From Thermobispora bispora DSM 43833 (GTDB taxonomy: Bacteria; Actinomycetota; Actinomycetes; Streptosporangiales; Streptosporangiaceae): 64,000 bases of DNA. The translations under genes were made by a program, and so were the position numbers. Shown one piece after another: positions 3,975 through 17,243 of this stretch. Under the pieces are notes generated by a model, which searched no databases, had not been told where the DNA came from, and saw only the letters and a list, made by a program, of their open reading frames with translations. The stretch lies in contig NC_014165.1 in the NCBI RefSeq assembly GCF_000092645.1, forward strand, positions 992,001 to 1,056,000, in the 5' to 3' direction. Position 1 is the first letter of the stretch, and each line of letters starts with the position of its first letter.

Positions 3975-5699
3975 TCAGGCCGGTGCGGGCGCGGTCCCGC
4001 CGCGCGGGGCCGCGGCCGGCGCGGCGCCGTCCCCGTGCCAGGGCGGGGTGAGATCGCCGAGCGCTTCCCCGTAGTCGGTGAGCCAGGCGCCGAAGAGCAC
4101 CAGGGCGCGCAGCCAGAACCGCGAGTTCCACGACCCGAACGCGGTGAGCGCGTCCGGCCCGGCCTCGACCACCTCCAGCATCTGGGGGGAGAGGAGCCCG
4201 GGGATCTCGGCCGCCCGGACCAGCATCCGGTGGTTCCACTCCCGGGCCACGGGCCCGTTCGACCGCAGCGGCACCCGCCGGTTCGGGAGCAGCGGCTCGT
4301 TGGTGGACGGCAGCGCGGCCACCCGGGGGTTCGCGGCGCGCAGGATCTCCCGGTAGAACCGGCCGCCCTCCTTGCGGGAGACCGGCACCGAGAGCGCCGC
4401 CTCGAAGAACTCCGGGTGGAGGAACGGGAAGACCGGGGTGACCTCCGGGCCGGCCAGGCCGAGCGGCGACCGGGCGATGCCCCGGACGGTCCGGGTGTGG
4501 AGCACGCTGAGCGGCAGCTCGGCCCGGTGCCCGTGGAGCATCGAGGTGGCCTGGAGGAAGGCGGTGCGCACCTGGTCGTCGATCCACTCGCGCGCGGCGT
4601 CGCCGAGCACGGGGATGTGCGGCGCGCCGGTGGCGAGGGAGGCGAGCAGGGCCTCGCGGCGGGCGGCGCCGGTGCCGGCGGCCACCGCGTCCGAGCTGAT
4701 GAGGAAGTTCTTCATCAGCGGCCCGCCGGCCAGCCCGTCGACCACCGGGCGCCCGGCCCGGTGCACCTCCCGGGCGAAGGGCGCGTACCAGGCGTGGTGG
4801 CTGGTGAGGTACTCGAGCCGGCGCGCCACCCAGAGCGCCTCCTCCGGGTACCGCGCCGGGTCCTGCGGCACGATCCGGTGGGGGATGCCGAGCTCGCGGG
4901 TGATGTACCGGGCGAAGTCGATGTCGGTGTCGAGCCCGTCGTCCGGGCTGGTGGTCCACGACTCGACGTCCATGCCGCGGGCCACGGCCACGCTCGCGAG
5001 CAGCCGCGAGTCGTACCCGCCGCTCACCGGCACGAGCACCCGGTCGTACGGCTCGAGCGCCCGGTGGAGCAGGGCGACCATGTCGCGGGCGGTCACCCCG
5101 CGGTCGATCGGCTCCCGCCGCACCCACCAGGGGGCGCGCCGGTCGAGCCGCAGCCGCCGCCCGGTGCGCGACCAGATCAGCGCGGTCGCCCCGGGCAGGC
5201 GCTTGACGTCCTCGTACGGCGTGTCGTCGAGCAGGGGGTAGGTGAGCTTGAGGATCGCCGCCCAGGCGCGCCAGTTCACCCGGTACGGCCGGCGGGCCAG
5301 GGCGAGCAGCGGCTCGATCAGCCCGGCGAAGTAGACGGCGTCCCCGTCGGCGAGGTAGTAGACGTCGACGAGCCCGAACGCGCCGGTGTGCAGGGTCACC
5401 TCGCCGGGCGCGTCGATGAGCCCCGGCGTCTCGTAGGCCTCCGCGACCGGCAGCCACCCGTCCGCGCCGGCGTCCGCCGCGGGCCGCCGATCCCCCCAGG
5501 CGTACGCGGTCGCCCCGGGGTCCGCGCGGTACGGGGTGAGCGGCCCGGAGCTGAACAGCGCGGCCTCCCGCCCGGTGTGCACGGCGGTCACGGCCGGGCC
5601 GGAGCGGGCGAGCAGGCCGAGTTTCGCCGGGTCGTACGGCCCGATCGCTCCGCAGACGTACGGCCGGGCCAGGAACCGTGGCCATTCACCGTTGCGCAC
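3975..5699 (-). CDS. asparagine synthetase-like protein lacking the glutaminase cysteine
   Basis: A 574-residue protein with the asparagine synthase C-terminal (PP-loop ATPase) fold. The pyrophosphate-binding motif SGGYDSR sits at residues 226-231, preceded by VLVPV and followed by LLASVAVA. The N-terminal 200 residues keep an Ntn-hydrolase-like outline (LHTGAFGLVDVYYLADG) but start MRNGEW. The Cys2 nucleophile of glutamine-dependent AsnB is therefore absent, so it should not use glutamine in the normal way. Such proteins adenylate a carboxylate and join it to an amine; lasso-peptide cyclases and beta-lactam synthetases share the fold. No lasso precursor, RRE or transglutaminase-like gene is nearby. 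The GTG start has a strong GAGGAGGGG six bases upstream. Divergently transcribed glycosyltransferase-like and nearby GT2 genes suggest a role in envelope glycan or peptidoglycan decoration, which is inference. Confidence 0.8.
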   Translation of the reverse strand: MRNGEWPRFLARPYVCGAIGPYDPAKLGLLARSGPAVTAVHTGREAALFSSGPLTPYRADPGATAYAWGDRRPAADAGADGWLPVAEAYETPGLIDAPGEVTLHTGAFGLVDVYYLADGDAVYFAGLIEPLLALARRPYRVNWRAWAAILKLTYPLLDDTPYEDVKRLPGATALIWSRTGRRLRLDRRAPWWVRREPIDRGVTARDMVALLHRALEPYDRVLVPVSGGYDSRLLASVAVARGMDVESWTTSPDDGLDTDIDFARYITRELGIPHRIVPQDPARYPEEALWVARRLEYLTSHHAWYAPFAREVHRAGRPVVDGLAGGPLMKNFLISSDAVAAGTGAARREALLASLATGAPHIPVLGDAAREWIDDQVRTAFLQATSMLHGHRAELPLSVLHTRTVRGIARSPLGLAGPEVTPVFPFLHPEFFEAALSVPVSRKEGGRFYREILRAANPRVAALPSTNEPLLPNRRVPLRSNGPVAREWNHRMLVRAAEIPGLLSPQMLEVVEAGPDALTAFGSWNSRFWLRALVLFGAWLTDYGEALGDLTPPWHGDGAAPAAAPRGGTAPAPA

Positions 5700-5925
5700 G
5701 CTCGCCCCTCCTCACAGGCGCCGGGTTCTCGCCCATTCTCCCGGTTCTCCCGGCCGGCCGTGGCGGCCGATTCTCCCACCGGTCGTGGCGGCCGAGGCGC
5801 CGCCGGACCCGGCCGTGGGCGGCGGGGGACGGGACTGCCGGGAAAATGGCGACGTCGCGCGATAAGGCCGCTGTTTTGCGAATATTGTGGCTCCTGTCCA
5901 TTCGGCTTGACGCGGAGTCACCCCC

Positions 5926-7941
5926 ATGAGCGAGCGAAGCGAGCTGGACGCCCTCCGGGAGGCGCTGGCCCAGGCCGTACAGCAGGCATCCCAGGCCGCC
6001 GAACTGGCCCGGCTGCTCACGGACTATCAGCGCAGGCTCGACGAGGCCGCCCGGGCCGAGGCCGAGGCGGTCACCCGGATGCGCCAGGCCGAGGCACGGC
6101 TCAAGGCCGTGGAGCGGCAGAACGCCACGCTCGCCAAGAACCTCGCCGAGCAGCGGTACCAGACCGCGGTGGCGAACTGGAAGCTCGCCTCGCTGCGGGA
6201 GAGCCGCTGGTCCAAGCTCGGCGACGCCCTGCACTCCAAGAACCCGGGCAAGCTGGCCCAGACCCTCCGGGCGCCGGTGAAGAAGCCCCCGGCGCCCAAG
6301 CGCTCGGACTTCCCGCCGGAGCTCCCCAAGATCCCCGAGCCGGCGGTGACCCCGGCCGCCCCCGACCCGAAGGCCCCGCAGGTCTCCACGCCGATGGCGG
6401 ACGGCTTCACCGTGCCCAAGGGCCCGACCGCCCGGCCGTACCTCACCGTGGCGGCGATCGTCGACCGGCAGACCGAGGCGCTGCTGCGGTACGAGTGGCG
6501 GCTGGTCACCGACTTCGGCCTGGAGAACTGGGAGGAGATGCTCGAGCGGCGCCGGCCGCACCTGCTCCTCGCCGAGTCCGTACGGCCCGGCCCCCGCCAG
6601 GGCAACGGCGGGCGCTGGCTCGAGGCGCTCGCCGGGGAGTCCCGCGCGCTCCGCGACCTGATCGCCGCCTGCCGCAAGCGGGGCATCCGGACCGTGTTCT
6701 GGCACTCGGGCGGGCCGGTGTCCCGCGCGGTGCCCGCCGCCGAGCACTTCGACCACGTGCTCACCTACTCCGAGGCGCGGGCCCGGGAGTGGCGGTCCGC
6801 CTTGCGCCACGACCGGGTGGGGGTCCTGCCGTACGCGATCCAGCCGCGGGTGCACAACCCGATCCCCGCGATCGGCGGCCGCACCGAGGAGATCATGACC
6901 CTCGGCACGGTCGCCGTGCCCGCCGAGGGCGACGGCGCCGCGGACCAGGCCGGCCGGGTCTGGCGGCCCATGCCCGGGCAGGGCGACGAGAAGATCACCT
7001 ACGACGACCTGCTCACCGCCTACCGGAGGCCCGCCCTCGTCGTGGCCGGCCCCGACGCCGACGAGCGGGCGGTCGCCGAGATCTCCGCGTGCGGCACGCC
7101 CGTGCTCCGGATGCGCAAGGGGGCGGGGCCGGAGGAGACCGCCGCCGCGGCCGAGGCCCTCCTGGCCGACCGGGAGCGGCTCGCCCGGGAGGCGCACCTC
7201 GCCTGGCGGGCGGCCACCCGGGTGACCCCGCTGCTCGACCCGATCCTCGACGTCCTCGGCATCCCGAGCGTGCGGGGCGCGGACCGGATCACCGTGATCA
7301 GCGCGGTGCGCACCCCGGAGGAGCTCGAGCACCTCGCCGCCCAGGTCGCCCGGCAGGCTCACCGGCCCGGGCAGCTCGTCGTGGTCGCCGAGGGCCTCGA
7401 CGCCGCCCTGGTGGAGAAGACCGTCCGCCACGCCGTGGAGCTCGACGACCTGGTGGTCCGGGTCTCCGGCACCCCGATCACCCGTGGCGCCGCCCTCGAC
7501 CGCGCGGCCCGGCTCGCCGACGGCGACCACGTGGCGGTGTTCGACCCCCGGGACGTGTACGGCGAGCACTACCTGGCCGACCTGGCCGGGTACTTCGCCG
7601 TGGCCGACGCCGAGGTGATCGGCAAGGCCTCGTTCTACGCCCACCTGCCGGGGACCGGCGCCACGCTGCTCCGCCAGCCGGGCGCCGAGCACCGCTTCCT
7701 GCCCGAGGTCGCCGGGGGCACGCTGCTCGCCCGCCGCCAGACGATCACCGACCTCGGGTTCGCCGACGTCTCCGAGGAGTGGGGCGAGGTCTTCATGCGG
7801 CAGTGCCGTACCGACGGGGTGCGGGTCTACTCGGCCGACCGGTACTCGTACGTGTGCGTCCGCGAGTCCGCGGAGGGGGAGCTGCTCGGCTCGGCCCGCC
7901 TGGAGGGGTACGTGCCCGCCGAGCCGCTCGCCCTGATCTGA
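5926..7941 (+). CDS. coiled-coil protein with glycosyltransferase-like C-terminal region
   Basis: A 671-residue protein. Residues 1-90 are a charged Ala/Glu/Arg heptad-type coiled coil, and 100-160 form a Pro/Lys-rich hinge. From about 165 (RPYLTVAAIVDRQTEALLRYEW) there is a Rossmann-like region resembling CgeB/GT-B transferases, including LLLAESVR, GIRTVFWHSGGPVS and a second alpha/beta half with ISACGTPVLRM. A further segment (about 450-640) resembles a GT2-type nucleotide-sugar domain: ITVISAVRTPEELEHLAAQV, VAVFDPRDVYGEHYLADL. It has no signal peptide and is predicted cytoplasmic. The ATG has no Shine-Dalgarno, and its first codons (MSERSE) belong to a GAGCGA-rich element also seen at 27609. 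It is divergent from the asparagine-synthetase-like gene with a shared 226-base upstream region. The acceptor and sugar are unknown. Confidence 0.75.
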   Translation: MSERSELDALREALAQAVQQASQAAELARLLTDYQRRLDEAARAEAEAVTRMRQAEARLKAVERQNATLAKNLAEQRYQTAVANWKLASLRESRWSKLGDALHSKNPGKLAQTLRAPVKKPPAPKRSDFPPELPKIPEPAVTPAAPDPKAPQVSTPMADGFTVPKGPTARPYLTVAAIVDRQTEALLRYEWRLVTDFGLENWEEMLERRRPHLLLAESVRPGPRQGNGGRWLEALAGESRALRDLIAACRKRGIRTVFWHSGGPVSRAVPAAEHFDHVLTYSEARAREWRSALRHDRVGVLPYAIQPRVHNPIPAIGGRTEEIMTLGTVAVPAEGDGAADQAGRVWRPMPGQGDEKITYDDLLTAYRRPALVVAGPDADERAVAEISACGTPVLRMRKGAGPEETAAAAEALLADRERLAREAHLAWRAATRVTPLLDPILDVLGIPSVRGADRITVISAVRTPEELEHLAAQVARQAHRPGQLVVVAEGLDAALVEKTVRHAVELDDLVVRVSGTPITRGAALDRAARLADGDHVAVFDPRDVYGEHYLADLAGYFAVADAEVIGKASFYAHLPGTGATLLRQPGAEHRFLPEVAGGTLLARRQTITDLGFADVSEEWGEVFMRQCRTDGVRVYSADRYSYVCVRESAEGELLGSARLEGYVPAEPLALI

Positions 7942-8022
7942 GCCGGCCTCGGCGCGGCGGGGAGTGCGCCGGCCTCGGCGCCTCGGGGCGGTTGGGCGGT
8001 GGGCGCCGGCCTGGGCGCCTCG
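7942..8022. repeat. short direct repeats after the GT-like gene
   Basis: Three related copies start at 7942 (GCCGGCCTCGGCGC), 7966 (GCGCCGGCCTCGGCGCCTCG) and 8003 (same, one mismatch). The two longer copies contain inverted GGCGCC arms, so each can fold. They lie directly behind a stop codon and may act as the terminator. Confidence 0.6.
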
Positions 8023-8067
8023 TGCCGCCCGGAGCCCGGCACTGCCGGGGGTGGATACCCTCCCGGT

Positions 8068-8736
8068 GTGACGCCCACGCAGCTCGCCGAGCTCCTCGGG
8101 GAACCCCCGGTGCCGCACGGCTCCTGGGAGCGGGCCGCGGTGTACGCCTCGGCGGCCGCGCTCCGCTCCGGACGGCCGCCGCGCGCGGCCGCCGAAGAGC
8201 TCGCGGCCCGGCTCCGCGGCCGGGAGGGGATCGCGGGCGTCCGGGTGCGGGACGACGGCTTCCTGATGATCGAGGTGGCATGCCCGGGGGAGATCGTCCG
8301 CGAGATCGTGACGGCCGGGCCGCCGCGGATCGCCGAGCCGGCCGAGGCGCCCCCGGACCACCCCCGGACCTGGGACAACCCCGGCTTCGTGGTCCGCTAC
8401 GCGCACGCCCGCGCGGCCGCCGTGGAGCGGTGGGCGGACGCCCTCGGCGTGCCCTGGGACGGGTTCCGGCCCGAGCTCCTCGCCGATCCCCACGACCGCG
8501 CCGTGCTCCGCCTGCTCGCCGAGCCGCCGAGCCGCGGCGCCGGCCGCGACCCCCGCTGGGCCGGGTACGCCGAGCGCCTCGCCCTCGCCTACCACGACGC
8601 GCACGAGCGCGCCCCGGCCGTCCCCCGGGGGGACGAGCCGGTGCGCGAGGTGCACACCGCGCGGCTCTGGCTCGCCCGGGCGGTGCGCGCCGTGCTCTCC
8701 GCCGTGCTCGCCACCCCGCTGCCGGAGCGGATCTGA
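8068..8736 (+). CDS. nrtL: ArgS-related anticodon-binding protein NrtL
   Basis: A 222-residue protein corresponding only to the terminal parts of arginyl-tRNA synthetase. The N-terminal portion resembles the ArgS N-terminal (Arg_tRNA_synt_N) region (TPTQLAELLGE to VACPGEIVREIV). The C-terminal portion is a DALR anticodon-binding domain (FVVRYAHARAAAVERWADALG, LRLLAEPP, LALAYHDAHERAPAV, LWLARAVRAVL, ending TPLPERI). The catalytic core with HIGH and KMSKS is absent, so it cannot charge tRNA by itself. Actinomycetes carry this gene just upstream of lysA, as here. I chose the GTG at 8068 because residues upstream of it look like untranslated repeat sequence. Its biochemical role is not established to my knowledge; a tRNA-Arg-binding or regulatory function is inference. 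Confidence 0.8.
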   Translation: MTPTQLAELLGEPPVPHGSWERAAVYASAAALRSGRPPRAAAEELAARLRGREGIAGVRVRDDGFLMIEVACPGEIVREIVTAGPPRIAEPAEAPPDHPRTWDNPGFVVRYAHARAAAVERWADALGVPWDGFRPELLADPHDRAVLRLLAEPPSRGAGRDPRWAGYAERLALAYHDAHERAPAVPRGDEPVREVHTARLWLARAVRAVLSAVLATPLPERI

Positions 8737-11779: not shown

Positions 11780-11959
11780 GCCGCGCGGGGCGTCGCCGTC
11801 GCCGGCGCGGGTCCCGCCCGGGCGCCGGGCCGGTCGCCCCGGCTGCCGGATGTATCCCGGTATGTCGCGACGTGTCGGGAGTGGGGGATATGGGCCGAGC
11901 GACCGTGATATGGGCGAGTGGGCTATGAGGCCGCCGGGACTCGGTTAGTCTCTGCTCCC

Positions 11960-12775
11960 ATGTGGTCGTGGATCAAGAAGGCGTCGACGGTCTCCCTCGC
12001 CGCGGCGCTCGCCGCCGGCATTCCGGCGGCCGCCTCCGCCGAGCCGGCGGCCGCGAGGCAGACGGTGGTCGCCCTCACCTTCGACGACGGCACCGCCGAT
12101 CACGCCCGAGTCGCCAAGATGCTCCGCGAACGCGGGCTGCGGGGGACGTTCTACGTCAACAGCGGCCGGCTCGGCCGGCGCGGCTACCTCACCGCGGCCG
12201 ACCTGCGGTCCATGGCGAAGGCCGGGCACGAGATCGGCGGCCACACCAGGGAGCACGTCCGCCTCGCCCACCTCAGCCCCGACCAGCAGCGGCGCCAGAT
12301 CTGCGAGGACCGGCGGGCGCTGTTCCGCCTCGGCCTCAAGGTGCGGTCGTTCGCCTACCCGTTCGGCAACTTCGACCAGACGAGCCGCGAGCTCGCCATG
12401 TACTGCGGGTACACCTCGGCGCGCGGCATCAACGGCCTCTACCGGCCGGACACCTGCCGGTCCTGCCCGTACGCCGAGACGATCCCGCCCGCCGACCTCG
12501 CGCTGGTGCGGACCACCTCGCAGACCCGGATGCCGCGCACCGCCCGCAACCTCGCCGCCTCCGTCACCCGGGCCCAGGCGCACGGCGGCGGGCTCGTCAC
12601 CTTCGTCTTCCACCGCATCCGGGACGACAAGCGGGACCAGTACGCGACCAGCCCGAAGGAGTTCACCCGGTTCATCGACTGGCTGGCGCGGCAGCAGAAG
12701 GCGAAGAAGGTCGTGGTGAAGCCGCTGGGCGAGGTCGTCGGCGGCCGGGTCTGGCCCGTGCCCGGCGACTCCTGA
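11960..12775 (+). CDS. secreted polysaccharide deacetylase (NodB domain)
   Basis: A 271-residue protein with a signal peptide (WSWIKKAST, hydrophobic core SLAAALAAGIPA, cleavage after AASA). The NodB/CE4 domain follows: VVALTFDDGTADH supplies the catalytic base and metal Asp, GHEIGGHTREHVRL supplies the two metal-binding His, then FAYPFGNFDQTS, and LVTFVFHRI as motif 5. It should remove N-acetyl groups from peptidoglycan or another surface glycan outside the membrane. The ATG at 11960 was chosen because the signal peptide begins there. There is no Shine-Dalgarno, and a TTAGTCT at 11945-11951 could be the -10 of a leaderless transcript. It starts a run of envelope-glycan genes. Confidence 0.9.
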   Translation: MWSWIKKASTVSLAAALAAGIPAAASAEPAAARQTVVALTFDDGTADHARVAKMLRERGLRGTFYVNSGRLGRRGYLTAADLRSMAKAGHEIGGHTREHVRLAHLSPDQQRRQICEDRRALFRLGLKVRSFAYPFGNFDQTSRELAMYCGYTSARGINGLYRPDTCRSCPYAETIPPADLALVRTTSQTRMPRTARNLAASVTRAQAHGGGLVTFVFHRIRDDKRDQYATSPKEFTRFIDWLARQQKAKKVVVKPLGEVVGGRVWPVPGDS

Positions 12776-12894
12776 CCTCCGGGGCGCCGGCTGCGACCCG
12801 TGGCTTGTCACGGTCGGTGACGGTCTGGTGGACTTCTCAGGTTCTTGTGATAGATGTCCACTAGCGTGGTAAACCGCGGTCAGCAGGAGGTGCC

Positions 12895-14004
12895 ATGACG
12901 ACCGAGCTGTGCTCGCCGATGGGGTTCATGCGCACCCCATCCGAGGGGACGGCGGAGCTGTCATGGCAGGACGGCCGATGGTTCGCGGCCGGCCGCCCGC
13001 TCGGGCGGCCGCTGCGCCCCGACGACGTGGCACCGCTCCGGCCGCTGCGCGCGTTACGGGTCGCCTGGCCGCGCGAACCCGCGGCGTACGCGCTCGCCAC
13101 GATCCGGGACCTCGCCGGAGCGGGCGTCCCGCTCACCGCGGACCCGCCGCCGGCCTGGGTCCGCGCCGCCGACCCCGTGCTCGCCGACCTGATCGCCGGC
13201 TGGGTCCCCGAGGCCGGGGACGGCTCGCCCCGCTCCGTGGCCGACCTGCGGCGGGAGGAGCACAGCGTGCGCCTGCGGCGGCACGCGCTCCGCGCCAAGG
13301 GCCTCTGCCGGGACACGCCCCAGGTGGCGGTGGTGATGGCGAGCCGCCGCCCGCACCTCGTCGGCCGGGCGCTCGCCCAGATCGCCCGCCAGCGCGGCGC
13401 CGACCTCGAGGTGATCGTCGCGCTGCACGGCTACCCCGCGGACCTGGTACGGCAGGCCCTCGACGAGTTCCCCGGCACGCTCACCGTCATCGAGGCGGAC
13501 CGGGACACCCCGTTCGGCGCGGTGCTCAACCAGGCGGCCGAACGGTCCTCGGCGGGCCTCATCGCCAAGTGGGACGACGATGACTGGTACGGCCCCGAGC
13601 ACATCGCCGACCTGCTGCTCGCCAAGGCGTACTCCGGGGCCGACGTCGTGGGCACGGCCGCCGAGTTCTTCCACCTGGAGCCGCTGAACTGCACGATCCG
13701 CCGGACCGACTACTCCAGCGAGGTCTGGACCGATCACGTCGCCGGGGGCACGATCCTGATCGACCGGCGGCTCTTCCAGGAGGTGGGCGGTTTCGCCCCG
13801 CTTCCCGGAGGCGTCGACAGCCACCTGCTCCGCGCGGCCGCGGCGGCCGGCGGGCGGATCTACCGCACCCACGGTCTCGGCTACATGCTCAGCCGGTCGG
13901 TGAGCGGCGACCACACCTGGCGGCTCCCCCTCGCCCACTTCCTCAGAGTCGCGACCAACCAATGGCACGGCTTCCGGCCGAGCCTGCTGCTGGAAACGCC
14001 ATGA
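12895..14004 (+). CDS. family 2 glycosyltransferase
   Basis: A 369-residue protein. The first 135 residues are not obviously catalytic (LSWQDGRWFAAGRPLGRPL). A GT-A fold follows: TPQVAVVMASRRPHLVGRALAQI, then the metal-binding DXD cluster KWDDDDWYGPEHI, and a C-terminal acceptor segment ending in a conserved histidine region (SGDHTWRLPLAHFL). There are no membrane helices, so it probably acts on the cytoplasmic face using a nucleotide sugar. The ATG has an excellent AGGAGGTG Shine-Dalgarno. Its last bases overlap the start of the next GT2 gene (ATGA), so the two are translationally coupled. Acceptor and donor are unknown. A TGTGA motif with an imperfect partner lies about 50 bases upstream. 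Confidence 0.88.
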   Translation: MTTELCSPMGFMRTPSEGTAELSWQDGRWFAAGRPLGRPLRPDDVAPLRPLRALRVAWPREPAAYALATIRDLAGAGVPLTADPPPAWVRAADPVLADLIAGWVPEAGDGSPRSVADLRREEHSVRLRRHALRAKGLCRDTPQVAVVMASRRPHLVGRALAQIARQRGADLEVIVALHGYPADLVRQALDEFPGTLTVIEADRDTPFGAVLNQAAERSSAGLIAKWDDDDWYGPEHIADLLLAKAYSGADVVGTAAEFFHLEPLNCTIRRTDYSSEVWTDHVAGGTILIDRRLFQEVGGFAPLPGGVDSHLLRAAAAAGGRIYRTHGLGYMLSRSVSGDHTWRLPLAHFLRVATNQWHGFRPSLLLETP

Positions 14005-15674
14005 CGCCACGAATCCGGGGAAACGACTACACCGTCCTGCGCCCGCCGGCGATCGGCTCGCCGTGGACGCCTCGGCTCACCGTGAGCGTGGTCATCCCCG
14101 CCTACGGCGCCCAGGAGAAGCTCGACCTCGTGCTCGCCGGGCTCTCCGCGCAGACCTATCCGCAGAACCTCATCGAGGTCATCGTCGTCGACAACGGCAG
14201 CACGCCGCCGCTGCGCCTCCCGGAGATCCGGCCGGCCAACACCCGGCTGGTGGTCTGCCCGGACCCGGGCCGCGCGGCCGCGCGGAACGCGGGCCTCGCC
14301 GCCGCCACCGGCGACGTGATCCACTGGCTGGACGCCGACGTCGTCCCCGAGCGGACCGAGGTCGAGGCGCACATGCGCTGGCACCACCTCGCGCCGTACC
14401 TGTCCGTCACCTCGTACCTGCGCTTCACCACGGCCCCGCTGCCCTCCCCGGAGGAGGTCGCCGCCGCCGAGGACCTGGGGAAGTTCTTCGAGCCGGCCGA
14501 GCCGCACGCCTGGATCGCGGACCTCATCGAGCGGACGGAGGCGCTCACCCGGTCGCGGCGGCCGTTCAGCGTCCACGTCGGCGGCGCCGCCTCGGTCGCC
14601 GCCCGGCTGTTCGAGCGCGCCGGGGCCATGGACCCCGAGATGATCCTCGGCCAGGACACCGAGATGGGGTACCGGCTGGCCCAGGCCGGCGCGGTGTTCA
14701 TCCCGGACCCCGAGGCCCGCGGCTACCACCTCGGCCCCTCGATGCGGATGCGGGACGGCGAGGCCATCAACCGCGTGAGCCACGCCCTCATCGCCGACCG
14801 GGTCCCGGTCTACCGGTGGCTGCGCTCGCACCCGTACCGGCAGTGGAAGGTGCCCTGGCTCGAGGTGGCCGTCGACGCGGCGGGCGCGTCGTTCGAGGAC
14901 GTGCGCGCCACCGTGGACGGCGTGCTCGCCGGCACGCTCACCGACCTGGCGGTGATCCTGGTCGGCCCGTGGGACGAGATCGAGCCGGAGCGGCGGGCGC
15001 CGCTCACCGACCCCCGCCTCGACCTCTCCCTGATCCGCGCCCACTACGCCTACGAGGGCAGGGTCCGGTTCGCCACCTCGCTCCCGCACACGGCCGCGCC
15101 GTTCCGCCTGCACCTGCCGCCGGGCTGGGTCCCGGGGGAGGACAGCCTGTTCGCGCTGCTCTCCCTCGCCCGGGACGAGCAGAACCTCGGCCTGGTCAGC
15201 GTCCTCCTCGCCGAGGGCCCGGACGGGATCGTCAGCGCCCGGCTCGAGCGCACGGAGGCGTTCGCCCGGGCGGCCATGCTCGTGACCGAGGGCGAGAGCA
15301 TCGACACCGTGGTCGACGAGACGTTCGGCACGCTCTGGGTCGACGGCGAGACGTACGGGTTCGTCCCGGCCTCCGCCGCCGCGCCGCTGCACAGCGCGCG
15401 GGCCGCCTACCGCGCCCGGGTGGAGGCGGAGGCCGAGGTGGCGCGCCTCACCAAGGAGACCGAGCGGCTGCGCGCCCAGGTCACCCGCTGGCGGGACGAG
15501 GCGGCCAAATGGCGGCGCTCCGCGGTGGAGTACCGCCGGGAGATCGGCAGCCTCCGGCGGCAGATCTCCGCCCTCAAGCGGCGCGACCCCGGGCTGAAGG
15601 CCATCGCCCGCGGCATCGCCCGGTCCATCGCGTTCCGCCGCTCGCACCCGCCGGACAAGGCCGCCGGTTCATGA
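14001..15674 (+). CDS. family 2 glycosyltransferase with C-terminal coiled coil
   Basis: A 557-residue protein with a typical GT-A domain near the N-terminus: LTVSVVIPAYGAQEKLDL, TYPQNLIEVIVVDNGS, the DXD HWLDADVVP, and the acceptor-base region MILGQDTEMGYRLAQAGAVF. Residues about 290-460 form a second alpha/beta region (LTDLAVILVGPW) of unknown function. Residues about 475-535 form a strongly charged coiled coil (VARLTKETERLRAQVTRWRDE). The ATG overlaps the preceding stop. Its 3' end overlaps the convergent gene at 15669 by six bases. It is clearly paralogous to that neighbour, which shares NDY, PPLRLPEIRP and QDTE(M/F) motifs in the same order. Confidence 0.88.
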   Translation: MTPRIRGNDYTVLRPPAIGSPWTPRLTVSVVIPAYGAQEKLDLVLAGLSAQTYPQNLIEVIVVDNGSTPPLRLPEIRPANTRLVVCPDPGRAAARNAGLAAATGDVIHWLDADVVPERTEVEAHMRWHHLAPYLSVTSYLRFTTAPLPSPEEVAAAEDLGKFFEPAEPHAWIADLIERTEALTRSRRPFSVHVGGAASVAARLFERAGAMDPEMILGQDTEMGYRLAQAGAVFIPDPEARGYHLGPSMRMRDGEAINRVSHALIADRVPVYRWLRSHPYRQWKVPWLEVAVDAAGASFEDVRATVDGVLAGTLTDLAVILVGPWDEIEPERRAPLTDPRLDLSLIRAHYAYEGRVRFATSLPHTAAPFRLHLPPGWVPGEDSLFALLSLARDEQNLGLVSVLLAEGPDGIVSARLERTEAFARAAMLVTEGESIDTVVDETFGTLWVDGETYGFVPASAAAPLHSARAAYRARVEAEAEVARLTKETERLRAQVTRWRDEAAKWRRSAVEYRREIGSLRRQISALKRRDPGLKAIARGIARSIAFRRSHPPDKAAGS

Positions 15675-17243
15675 TCGGCGGAACAGGCCGAGGCGGCCCC
15701 ACACGGAGCGGCCGCCCGGCTGTGCCGGGGCGGGCTCTTTCGCCGCCGGCCGTGCCGCCTGGCCCTCCCGCCGCCGCGCCGCTCGCCGTTCCGCCTCCTG
15801 CGCGGCCTGCCCGCCGGCCGGCTCCGGGCGCTTGGCGGCGGGCTCGTCCCGTCCGGCCGCCCGCCGGAACTCCCGCTCCGCGGCGTGCCGTACCCCGTGG
15901 GTCGCCTCGATGACGTCGGTCAGCCGCTCGCCGGGCGCGGCGAGCAGCCGGGCGCGGGCGACCGCCTCGGTGCGCTCCAGCGTCGCGGTCCCGCCGCCGT
16001 CGAGCTCGACCACCAGCATCCCCAGCCGCTCCTCGAGCATGACCTTGGTCATCCGCTCCAGCAGGTCGCCGGTCGGCGGGGCGTCGATCGGCGCGGTGTA
16101 CCGGAACGGGGCCGGGGCCGCCGTCGGGGCGGGGCGCTCGGCGAACCGCACCCGCGGGTCGTGGCGGAGCAGCTCGTGCACGAGGGCGCGGTCGAAGGCG
16201 GGGCCGTGCCACTGGGGGCCGCCGGGGGCGGCCGGGTCCGGCCAGGTCCCCACCAGGGTGACCGCCACGTCGGTGAGGGTGCCGCCGAGGGCGGCGTCGA
16301 CCGCGGCGCGCACCCGCCGCTCGTCCGCCCCGGTCGCGTCGAACACGACCTCGACGAAGGGGACGAGCCACCGCCGGCCCCGGTCCTTGCGGAGATCCCG
16401 CCGGAGCGGCACCCGGTGCGCCAGGTAGGTCTCGACCAGGCGGATGATCGCCTCCCGGTGCTCGCCCCGCTGCGCCGGCATGCCGAGGTGGACCGCCCGC
16501 GCCGCCGGGTCGGGGATGAACACCGCGCCCGCCTGCGCGAGCCGGTAGGCGAACTCGGTGTCCTGCCCGCGGACGACCTCGGGGTCGAACCCGCCGACCT
16601 CCGCCAGGAGCGTGCGGCGGAGCGACACGGTGGGCCCGGTGCAGACCTGGTAGGGGTTGCGGCTCTTCCGCAGCCCGTCGAGCCGCTCGATCGTCGCCTC
16701 GGTCGAGCTGGCGACCAGCGCGGCCGGGTCGAAGAGCGAGTCGAAGTCGCCGCGCTTCACCGCGTCGTAGACCGCCTCCGGGGTGAGCTCCGGCTCCTCG
16801 GTGAACCTCTTGCCGCCGATCGTCACCAGGTAGTCGGTCAGGTGGTGCCAGCGGAACAGGGACTCCAGGTGCTCGGCGCAGATCACCATGTCCGCGTCGA
16901 GCCGGTGGACGATCTCACCGCCGGCCGCCGCGATCCCCGCGTTCATCGCGTGCCCGGGCCCCCGGCCGCCCGGCGGGCTGACGATGATCCGCGTGTTCTC
17001 CGGGCGGATCTCCGGCAGCCGCAGCGGCGGGGAGCTCCCGTCGTCCACGACGATGACCTCGGTGAGCGAGGCAGGGTAGGTCTGGGCGGCGAGCGCGGCG
17101 AGGGTGAGGTCGAGGCGGTGCTGCGCACCGCGCGCCGGGATGACCACGCTGGCGGTGAGCCGCGGAACCCAGTCGCCCAGGGGCGGTGGAGTCAGGGGAG
17201 AATAGTCGTTGTGCCGGATCCTCGGCCGGGCTTCGCCCGTCAC
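15669..17243 (-). CDS. family 2 glycosyltransferase, paralogue of the convergent neighbour
   Basis: A 524-residue protein beginning RPRIRHNDYSPLTPPPLGDW. The GT-A domain is LTASVVIPARGAQHRLDL, EVIVVDDGS, HRLDADMVI and VRGQDTEFAYRLAQAGAVFIPDP. The middle region (LTDVAVTLVGTWPDP) matches that of the paralogue. The C-terminal 70 residues are Ala/Arg/Glu/Pro-rich and low in complexity rather than a clean coiled coil. The GTG start has GAGGAG eight bases upstream. The gene points back toward its paralogue and overlaps it tail to tail, an arrangement that implies inversion after duplication. Acceptor unknown; cytoplasmic membrane face assumed. Confidence 0.87.
   Translation of the reverse strand: MTGEARPRIRHNDYSPLTPPPLGDWVPRLTASVVIPARGAQHRLDLTLAALAAQTYPASLTEVIVVDDGSSPPLRLPEIRPENTRIIVSPPGGRGPGHAMNAGIAAAGGEIVHRLDADMVICAEHLESLFRWHHLTDYLVTIGGKRFTEEPELTPEAVYDAVKRGDFDSLFDPAALVASSTEATIERLDGLRKSRNPYQVCTGPTVSLRRTLLAEVGGFDPEVVRGQDTEFAYRLAQAGAVFIPDPAARAVHLGMPAQRGEHREAIIRLVETYLAHRVPLRRDLRKDRGRRWLVPFVEVVFDATGADERRVRAAVDAALGGTLTDVAVTLVGTWPDPAAPGGPQWHGPAFDRALVHELLRHDPRVRFAERPAPTAAPAPFRYTAPIDAPPTGDLLERMTKVMLEERLGMLVVELDGGGTATLERTEAVARARLLAAPGERLTDVIEATHGVRHAAEREFRRAAGRDEPAAKRPEPAGGQAAQEAERRAARRREGQAARPAAKEPAPAQPGGRSVWGRLGLFRRS

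Follow-up and report, generated by a model that had tools for sequence, protein, structure and literature searches.

Two divergent genes of Thermobispora bispora, located in the stretch of DNA analysed here (the window; 64,000 nucleotides, positions 992001-1056000 of the single 4,189,976-bp chromosome), are inherited together in heat-loving and soil-dwelling actinobacteria, the Streptosporangiaceae. One encodes a PP-loop protein that is predicted to fold like the asparagine synthetase AsnB and to carry a dead glutaminase domain, and the other a glycosyltransferase (GT) with two predicted catalytic halves. We tentatively propose, as a serious possibility that stops short of being probable, that the PP-loop protein is an ATP-dependent ligase which joins the carboxylate of a surface-glycan precursor to an amine, acting together with the partner GT. 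Both open reading frames were confirmed, and both are coding as judged by codon-position GC content:

3975..5699, minus strand: PP-loop protein, Asn_synthase fold with degenerate glutaminase domain, 574 amino acids (aa), GTG start
5926..7941, plus strand: partner glycosyltransferase, 671 aa, ATG start

Fold and catalytic residues of the PP-loop protein

The PP-loop protein scores 27.2 bits with the Asn_synthase model PF00733, above the cut-off of 21, and lies under every NCBIfam cut-off, including those for glutamine-hydrolysing asparagine synthetase (TIGR01536; 29.2 bits vs 267.1) and for the lasso cyclase family (NF033535; 25.4 vs 525). No match to the eps_aminotran_1 model TIGR03108 was found for the window protein at E values up to 10, or for 47 members of its family at up to 0.001. 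Searches of PDB sequences by phmmer with the single sequence of either protein of the pair returned nothing up to E 1, and profiles returned weak matches only. Structure prediction, as the earlier reading made from the sequence alone had suggested, points to an AsnB-type protein. The closest solved structure to an AlphaFold2 model built from 47 orthologs (predicted local distance difference test, pLDDT, 84.8; predicted template modelling score, pTM, 0.87) is the hydroxyamidotransferase TsnB9 (7YLZ; Z 23.3 over 488 residues, 3.5 Å), followed by beta-lactam synthetase, carbapenam synthetase (CarA) and AsnB at Z of about 19.7 (for AsnB 1CT9, 19.7 over 408 residues). By this model, the protein is predicted to have the complete asparagine-synthetase fold.

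The sequence-only reading had described the protein as being without a glutaminase, and this needs correction, since the domain is dead by its residues rather than missing. The structural match begins at model residue 13, and an N-terminal nucleophile (Ntn) domain is therefore present as a fold, with model residues 13-200 aligning with the N-terminal domains of AsnB, PurF and GlmS. Glutaminase activity of active relatives requires Cys2 together with the glutamine-binding Arg49, Asn74, Glu76 and Asp98, which correspond to Arg48, Asn73, Glu75 and Asp97 of AsnH (PMC3885529). The PP-loop protein has no Cys2; its residue 2 is Arg and its nearest Cys is Cys16. In alignments with asparagine synthetases of the same phylum, made with MAFFT and HHalign, the segment of Arg49 (RLSIVD) is deleted and that of Asp98 (the TxSDxE region) is also deleted or replaced, while the position of Asn74 in the NGE motif is taken by a conserved Trp (W68, 45/47), so that MAFFT places WGD or WGE opposite NGE; HHalign differs locally at this point and likewise finds no Asn. 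With its fold kept and the glutamine-binding residues Arg49, Asn74 and Asp98 lost, the glutaminase domain is predicted to be dead. Three motifs of the protein are central to what follows:

5640..5666, minus strand: RPYVCGAIG, residues 12-20, N-terminal strand with a CGxxG remnant; Cys16 in 46 of 47 aligned sequences
5007..5024, minus strand: PP-loop SGGYDS, residues 226-231, as read earlier from the sequence; invariant in 47/47 relatives
4719..4739, minus strand: DGLAGGP, residues 321-327, in place of the SGEGADE loop of asparagine synthetases; invariant in 47/47

Besides SGGYDS, the residues R232, D253, D254, D257, D259, K330, R403, E419, K443, R475 and R479 are invariant. The RPYVCGAIG strand, invariant but for Cys16, had been overlooked in the sequence-only reading. 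It is similar to MCGIxG, with which active glutaminases begin, except that 5-15 residues of the chain precede it. Both MAFFT and HHalign pair CGAIG with MCGITG, and hence Cys16 with the catalytic Cys, whereas the structural alignment pairs model residue 13 with chain residue 1 of AsnB, PurF and GlmS (residue 2 of TsnB9). Processing that would turn Cys16 into an Ntn nucleophile was rejected as unlikely: the invariant Arg-Pro-Tyr before the Cys is unlike a throw-away leader, Nonomuraea solani has Ser at the otherwise conserved Cys16, the glutamine-binding residues are lost, and the structures align at residue 13. Compared with the AsnB family (PF00733; 1CT9 and TsnB9), the window protein shares the full length of the two-domain fold (Z 19.7-23.3) and the SGGxDS type of PP-loop, but lacks the glutamine-binding Arg, Asn and Asp, has a Cys only inside the chain and carries DGLAGGP for SGEGADE.

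A kinship in glutaminase loss with beta-lactam synthetases and lasso cyclases, also suggested earlier, is supported by fold and alignments. In beta-lactam synthetase, carbapenam synthetase and the lasso and macrolactam cyclases, too, the glutaminase part of the AsnB fold is dead; these enzymes are known to form a bond to an amine other than glutamine-derived ammonia, and the window protein may do so too. The solved beta-lactam synthetase and CarA are 12-17% identical to the window protein, whose scores are far below the family cut-offs. Furthermore, beta-lactam synthetases and lasso cyclases are tied to a peptide or beta-lactam pathway, whereas the window protein is tied to a glycosyltransferase.

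Elsewhere on the chromosome, the gene at 3596617-3598449 is the only one scored as a member of the Asn_synthase family by a family search of this genome, which missed the window gene. As it scores 630 bits with TsnB9, a hydroxyamidotransferase, vs 169 bits with AsnB, its function may differ from that of a plain asparagine synthetase.

The partner glycosyltransferase and the co-inheritance of the pair

For the partner, a coiled coil followed by a GT-B-like and a GT2-like half had been read from the sequence, and an AlphaFold2 model (pLDDT 72.5, pTM 0.44) agrees with this division:

5932..6198, plus strand: long N-terminal helix, residues 3-91, from the secondary structure of the model; probable coiled coil
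6445..7215, plus strand: GT-B-like half, residues 174-430, from the model
7279..7845, plus strand: GT-A (GT2) half, residues 452-640, from the model and structural matches
7543..7554, plus strand: D540-P-R-D543, located where GT-A enzymes have DxD; each Asp is invariant in 35/35 sequences

The GT-A half matches WrtF, PcManGT, RmlT, TarS and TarP at Z 15.5-18.1, with the best matches extending over 173-178 residues; among these, the GT2 enzymes of wall teichoic acid share its GT-A domain at Z 16-17 (TarS, RmlT) and 15.5 (TarP). Its score with PF13641 (24.3 bits) is below the cut-off of 27, and 27 of 35 relatives match this model at E up to 0.01. In the GT-B half, no PF13524 match was found in the window partner or its orthologs. 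The closest relative of the partner within the T. bispora genome, a paralog (L175), has clear matches to PF13524 (2.6e-19) and PF00535, and adjoins genes for a UDP-GlcNAc (uridine diphosphate N-acetylglucosamine) 2-epimerase (Epimerase_2) and a UDP-sugar dehydrogenase (UDPG_MGDP_dh). The exostosins EXT1 and EXT2, which also combine GT-B and GT-A halves, were the top Foldseek matches of the GT-B half, but at a template modelling score of 0.22 they are not trusted as its homologs, and no solved relative was singled out. The partner differs from TarS, TarP, RmlT and the exostosins in its long N-terminal helix, in a DxxD motif for DxD (position 542 being Arg or Gln in the 35 sequences), and in a GT-B half without a sequence match. 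It is predicted from its modelled domains to be a bifunctional GT-B plus GT-A glycosyltransferase.

The pair has a fixed setting. An ATP-binding cassette (ABC) permease gene and a gene for a trehalose-synthase-like protein (TreS, minus strand) precede the PP-loop gene; the partner GT gene is followed by a DALR-domain gene, lysA, hom, a polysaccharide deacetylase gene and two GT2 genes, all on the plus strand, then by a third GT2 gene on the minus strand, thrC, thrB and rho (names of housekeeping genes being assigned from sequence inspection). We surveyed 200 genomes from 45 genera of the order, and compared 80 named loci, all from Streptosporangiaceae. The PP-loop gene is present in 92 of the 200 genomes (46%) and in 18 of the 45 genera. 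A wide spread beyond the family was rejected, as a search of 396 genomes from across the phylum gave only 2 with a match at E up to 1e-25, the window's own genome being one of them, and a plasmid collection yielded a single match, a Nonomuraea record of 11.85 Mb. The pair is restricted almost wholly to Streptosporangiaceae in the sampled genomes.

Co-occurrence across genomes, which the sequence-only reading had put forward as a check, is supported. The partner GT lies divergent from the PP-loop gene within the fetched stretch in 78/80 loci. Of the other two, one (L083) is at a contig edge, and in the other, from Microbispora bryophytorum (L093), about 10 kb separate the GT from the PP-loop gene. 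Synteny alone is weak evidence for a joint role, because TreS and lysA are conserved too. The five genomes of the genus g22 (L185, L186, L196, L197 and L198) are therefore instructive: they retain the gene order from ABC through TreS, DALR, lysA and hom to the GT2 genes, but the PP-loop and partner GT genes are both absent, so that TreS directly adjoins the DALR gene, and no PP-loop gene match was found in these genomes. A lysA tree nests g22 within the carriers with starred support, which indicates that both genes were lost together. No genome of the carrier clade was found to keep one gene of the pair without the other, and in both Microbispora and Microtetraspora the pair persists despite unrelated genes between its members, which in Microbispora take up to 10 kb.

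Relatives of the PP-loop gene recur in glycan-related settings. In five Sphaerisporangium-type genomes, a second paralog (35% identical) heads an operon with a methyltransferase gene, GT genes and, in some, a deacetylase gene. In one distant actinobacterial genome, one homolog and a GT2 gene overlap; a second homolog has neighbours that on sequence inspection resemble genes for an ABC-2 exporter and a UDP-glucose dehydrogenase.

The intergenic region and neighbouring genes

The surroundings of the pair include the following elements:

5700..5925, strand not assigned: intergenic region between the divergent genes, 226 bp
5878..5890, plus strand: AT-rich element GCGAATATTGTGG, a possible promoter; it is found again before the GT gene in Microbispora, Acrocarpospora and Herbidospora
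11918-12775, plus strand: polysaccharide deacetylase gene
12895-14004, plus strand: first GT2 gene
13962-15674, plus strand: second GT2 gene
15669-17243, minus strand: third GT2 gene

The pair had been described as two divergent genes around one regulatory region. The divergence holds. As to the single region, a scan of the 226-bp gap for sigma-70-type promoters gave no site, and the gap is not kept as a unit, as unrelated genes are inserted in Microbispora and Microtetraspora. A short AT-rich element (GCGAATATTGTG) was found repeatedly upstream of the partner GT in several genera. In Microbispora and Microtetraspora, the gap is a hot spot for insertions that differ from genome to genome and include genes for a 2,788-aa RHS-repeat protein, a DDE transposase, a 1,331-aa WXG100-like protein and AAA_14/DUF4143 ATPases:

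L065:4660-13026, gap insert
L067:7633-8871, gap insert
L072:6250-11784, gap insert
L073:9815-11176, gap insert
L075:9206-10585, gap insert
L078:10067-11356, gap insert

In Sphaerisporangium, the second PP-loop paralog is accompanied by homologs of the deacetylase gene and of the first and second GT2 genes (11918..15674). Obligatory membership of these genes in the system was nevertheless rejected, because 140/200 genomes have homologs of the GT2 gene at 12895, whether or not they carry the PP-loop gene, and GT2 genes are still present at the g22 locus without the pair; they are neighbours of a related kind. A third set of homologs of window 11918-15674 (deacetylase, GT2, GT2) lies at chromosome positions 682000-701900, with two more GT-like genes and no PP-loop gene.

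The DALR gene between the GT and lysA (window 7999-8736, 245 aa) has weak Arg-tRNA-synthetase N-terminal and DALR domains without the catalytic core. It is kept across the order, including genomes without the pair, and is possibly a remnant of argS.

Proposed reaction, alternatives and significance

In the mechanism that we propose, the PP-loop protein would be an AsnB-fold ligase that no longer makes its own ammonia. ATP would be bound at SGGYDS, as sequence and fold suggest, a carboxylate would be adenylated, and the activated carboxylate would be passed to an amine which, because the glutaminase residues are lost, would not be released from glutamine by the protein's own N-terminal domain. 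Together, the two proteins would equip a surface glycan of the Streptosporangiaceae with one tailored unit, in the simplest case a uronic acid that bears an amide or aminoacyl substituent. Uronic acids are the simplest carboxylates in glycans; possible donors are suggested by the epimerase and UDP-sugar dehydrogenase genes beside the partner paralog, a type of gene that makes uronic-acid sugar nucleotides. A more specific version, which we regard as quite unlikely, is a wall-glycan tailoring module peculiar to this family, in which a glutaminase-dead ligase with a remodelled catalytic loop (DGLAGGP) makes an amide undescribed in bacterial glycans, such as an aminoacyl-uronamide or a sugar lactam, and a dedicated coiled-coil GT-B/GT-A enzyme then polymerises or transfers it.

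The surface-glycan pathway proposed from the sequence is partly supported: its setting gains support through the operon of the PP-loop paralog and the sugar-nucleotide genes beside the partner paralog, and within it the PP-loop protein may amidate or adenylate a carboxylate. Several points weigh against our proposal. The SGEGADE loop, which holds the catalytic Glu and the second Mg ligand, is DGLAGGP in every member, and the region of the catalytic Lys (RxKE; Lys449) aligns with LPSTN in a weakly aligned stretch, so that catalysis could be altered or lost. With SGGYDS invariant, the ATP site seems preserved and the acceptor side remodelled. The sugar-nucleotide genes are 0.8 Mb away and not specific to carriers. 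Finally, the joint absence from g22 counts as one event, which the removal of two adjacent genes in a single deletion would equally explain.

AsnB-like proteins have precedents in glycan pathways. WbpS amidates a uronic acid to a uronamide, and genes for AsnB-like proteins are known to neighbour those for deacetylases and GTs (PMC7468200). Like WbpS and WbqG (TIGR03108), whose glycan gene sets contain GTs and in certain species also a polysaccharide deacetylase (PMC7468200), the window protein stands in such a setting, with its GT partner and the nearby GT2 and deacetylase genes; unlike them, it has no TIGR03108 match, a dead glutaminase domain and a place in a fixed divergent pair of two genes. 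The peptidoglycan amidotransferases LtsA and AsnH are also AsnB-like and act on the Gram-positive envelope (PMC3885529), but their glutaminase is intact (Cys2, Arg48, Asn73, Glu75 and Asp97 in AsnH), and pairing with a GT is not described for them. The earlier statement that no system of this composition has been described therefore holds only narrowly, as WbpS, WbqG and eps_aminotran_1 proteins are known from glycan clusters (PMC7468200). What sets this probably envelope-tailoring enzyme apart is its glutaminase-dead form and its pairing with an unusual, predicted bifunctional GT. A literature search found no paper on this gene pair, nor was a linked enzyme pair specific to Streptosporangiaceae found in the papers searched.

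The WbpS precedent leads to an alternative, in which the window protein is a uronamide synthase without a glutaminase of its own, and amidates a sugar uronic acid with plain ammonia, which would be free or supplied by another protein with glutaminase activity. Ammonia can replace glutamine in AsnB enzymes (PMC13060819), and the genome contains UDP-sugar dehydrogenases; however, the eps_aminotran_1 model does not recognise the protein, retention of a glutaminase-dead form in 18 genera would be unusual for an ammonia enzyme, and no partner glutaminase gene was seen beside the PP-loop gene. We consider this explanation unlikely. The altered loop, together with the failure of Lys449 to appear at its aligned position, could also mean that the PP-loop protein is a catalytically inactive pseudoenzyme or scaffold, which binds ATP or an intermediate of the glycan and controls the partner GT. 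This we likewise consider unlikely, as SGGYDS and the eleven other invariant residues (R232 to R479) form the pattern of a working active site, and the Sphaerisporangium paralog has DGCLGD at the loop and thus retains an Asp.

Two further explanations would detach the PP-loop protein from the wall or from its partner. A cyclase producing a diffusible natural product by a beta-lactam, lasso or macrolactam type of reaction would fit the closest dead-glutaminase families, which are the lasso and albusnodin macrolactam cyclase models (a weak match, best 1.9e-12), and the high Foldseek ranks of CarA and beta-lactam synthetase. It is made very unlikely by the constancy of the chromosomal site, with TreS on one side and lysA-hom on the other, in many genera and 46% of the sampled order genomes, which is unlike patchy biosynthetic clusters, and no genes for a precursor peptide, a non-ribosomal peptide synthetase or a polyketide synthase were seen nearby in the gene calls. 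That the two genes are merely neighbours through inherited synteny, without a joint function, appears more improbable still: the flanking ABC, TreS, DALR and lysA genes are conserved as well and homologs of the GT2 genes at the locus are widespread (140/200 genomes), but these two genes alone are missing from the g22 locus, Microbispora keeps the pair across its inserts, and a PP-loop paralog again occurs in a GT operon.

Members of the Streptosporangiaceae produce antibiotics, and the chemistry of their walls is used to classify them. Whole cells of T. bispora contain madurose and galactose (PMC3035289). If our proposal of a glycan-precursor ligase is true, the window protein would extend the chemistry of the AsnB fold beyond lactams, lasso or macrolactam rings, and hydroxamates or nitriles, and the combination of a dead-glutaminase ligase with a bifunctional GT would point to a new glycan modification in this family, for which the natural empty site in g22 offers a ready comparison of carriers with non-carriers.

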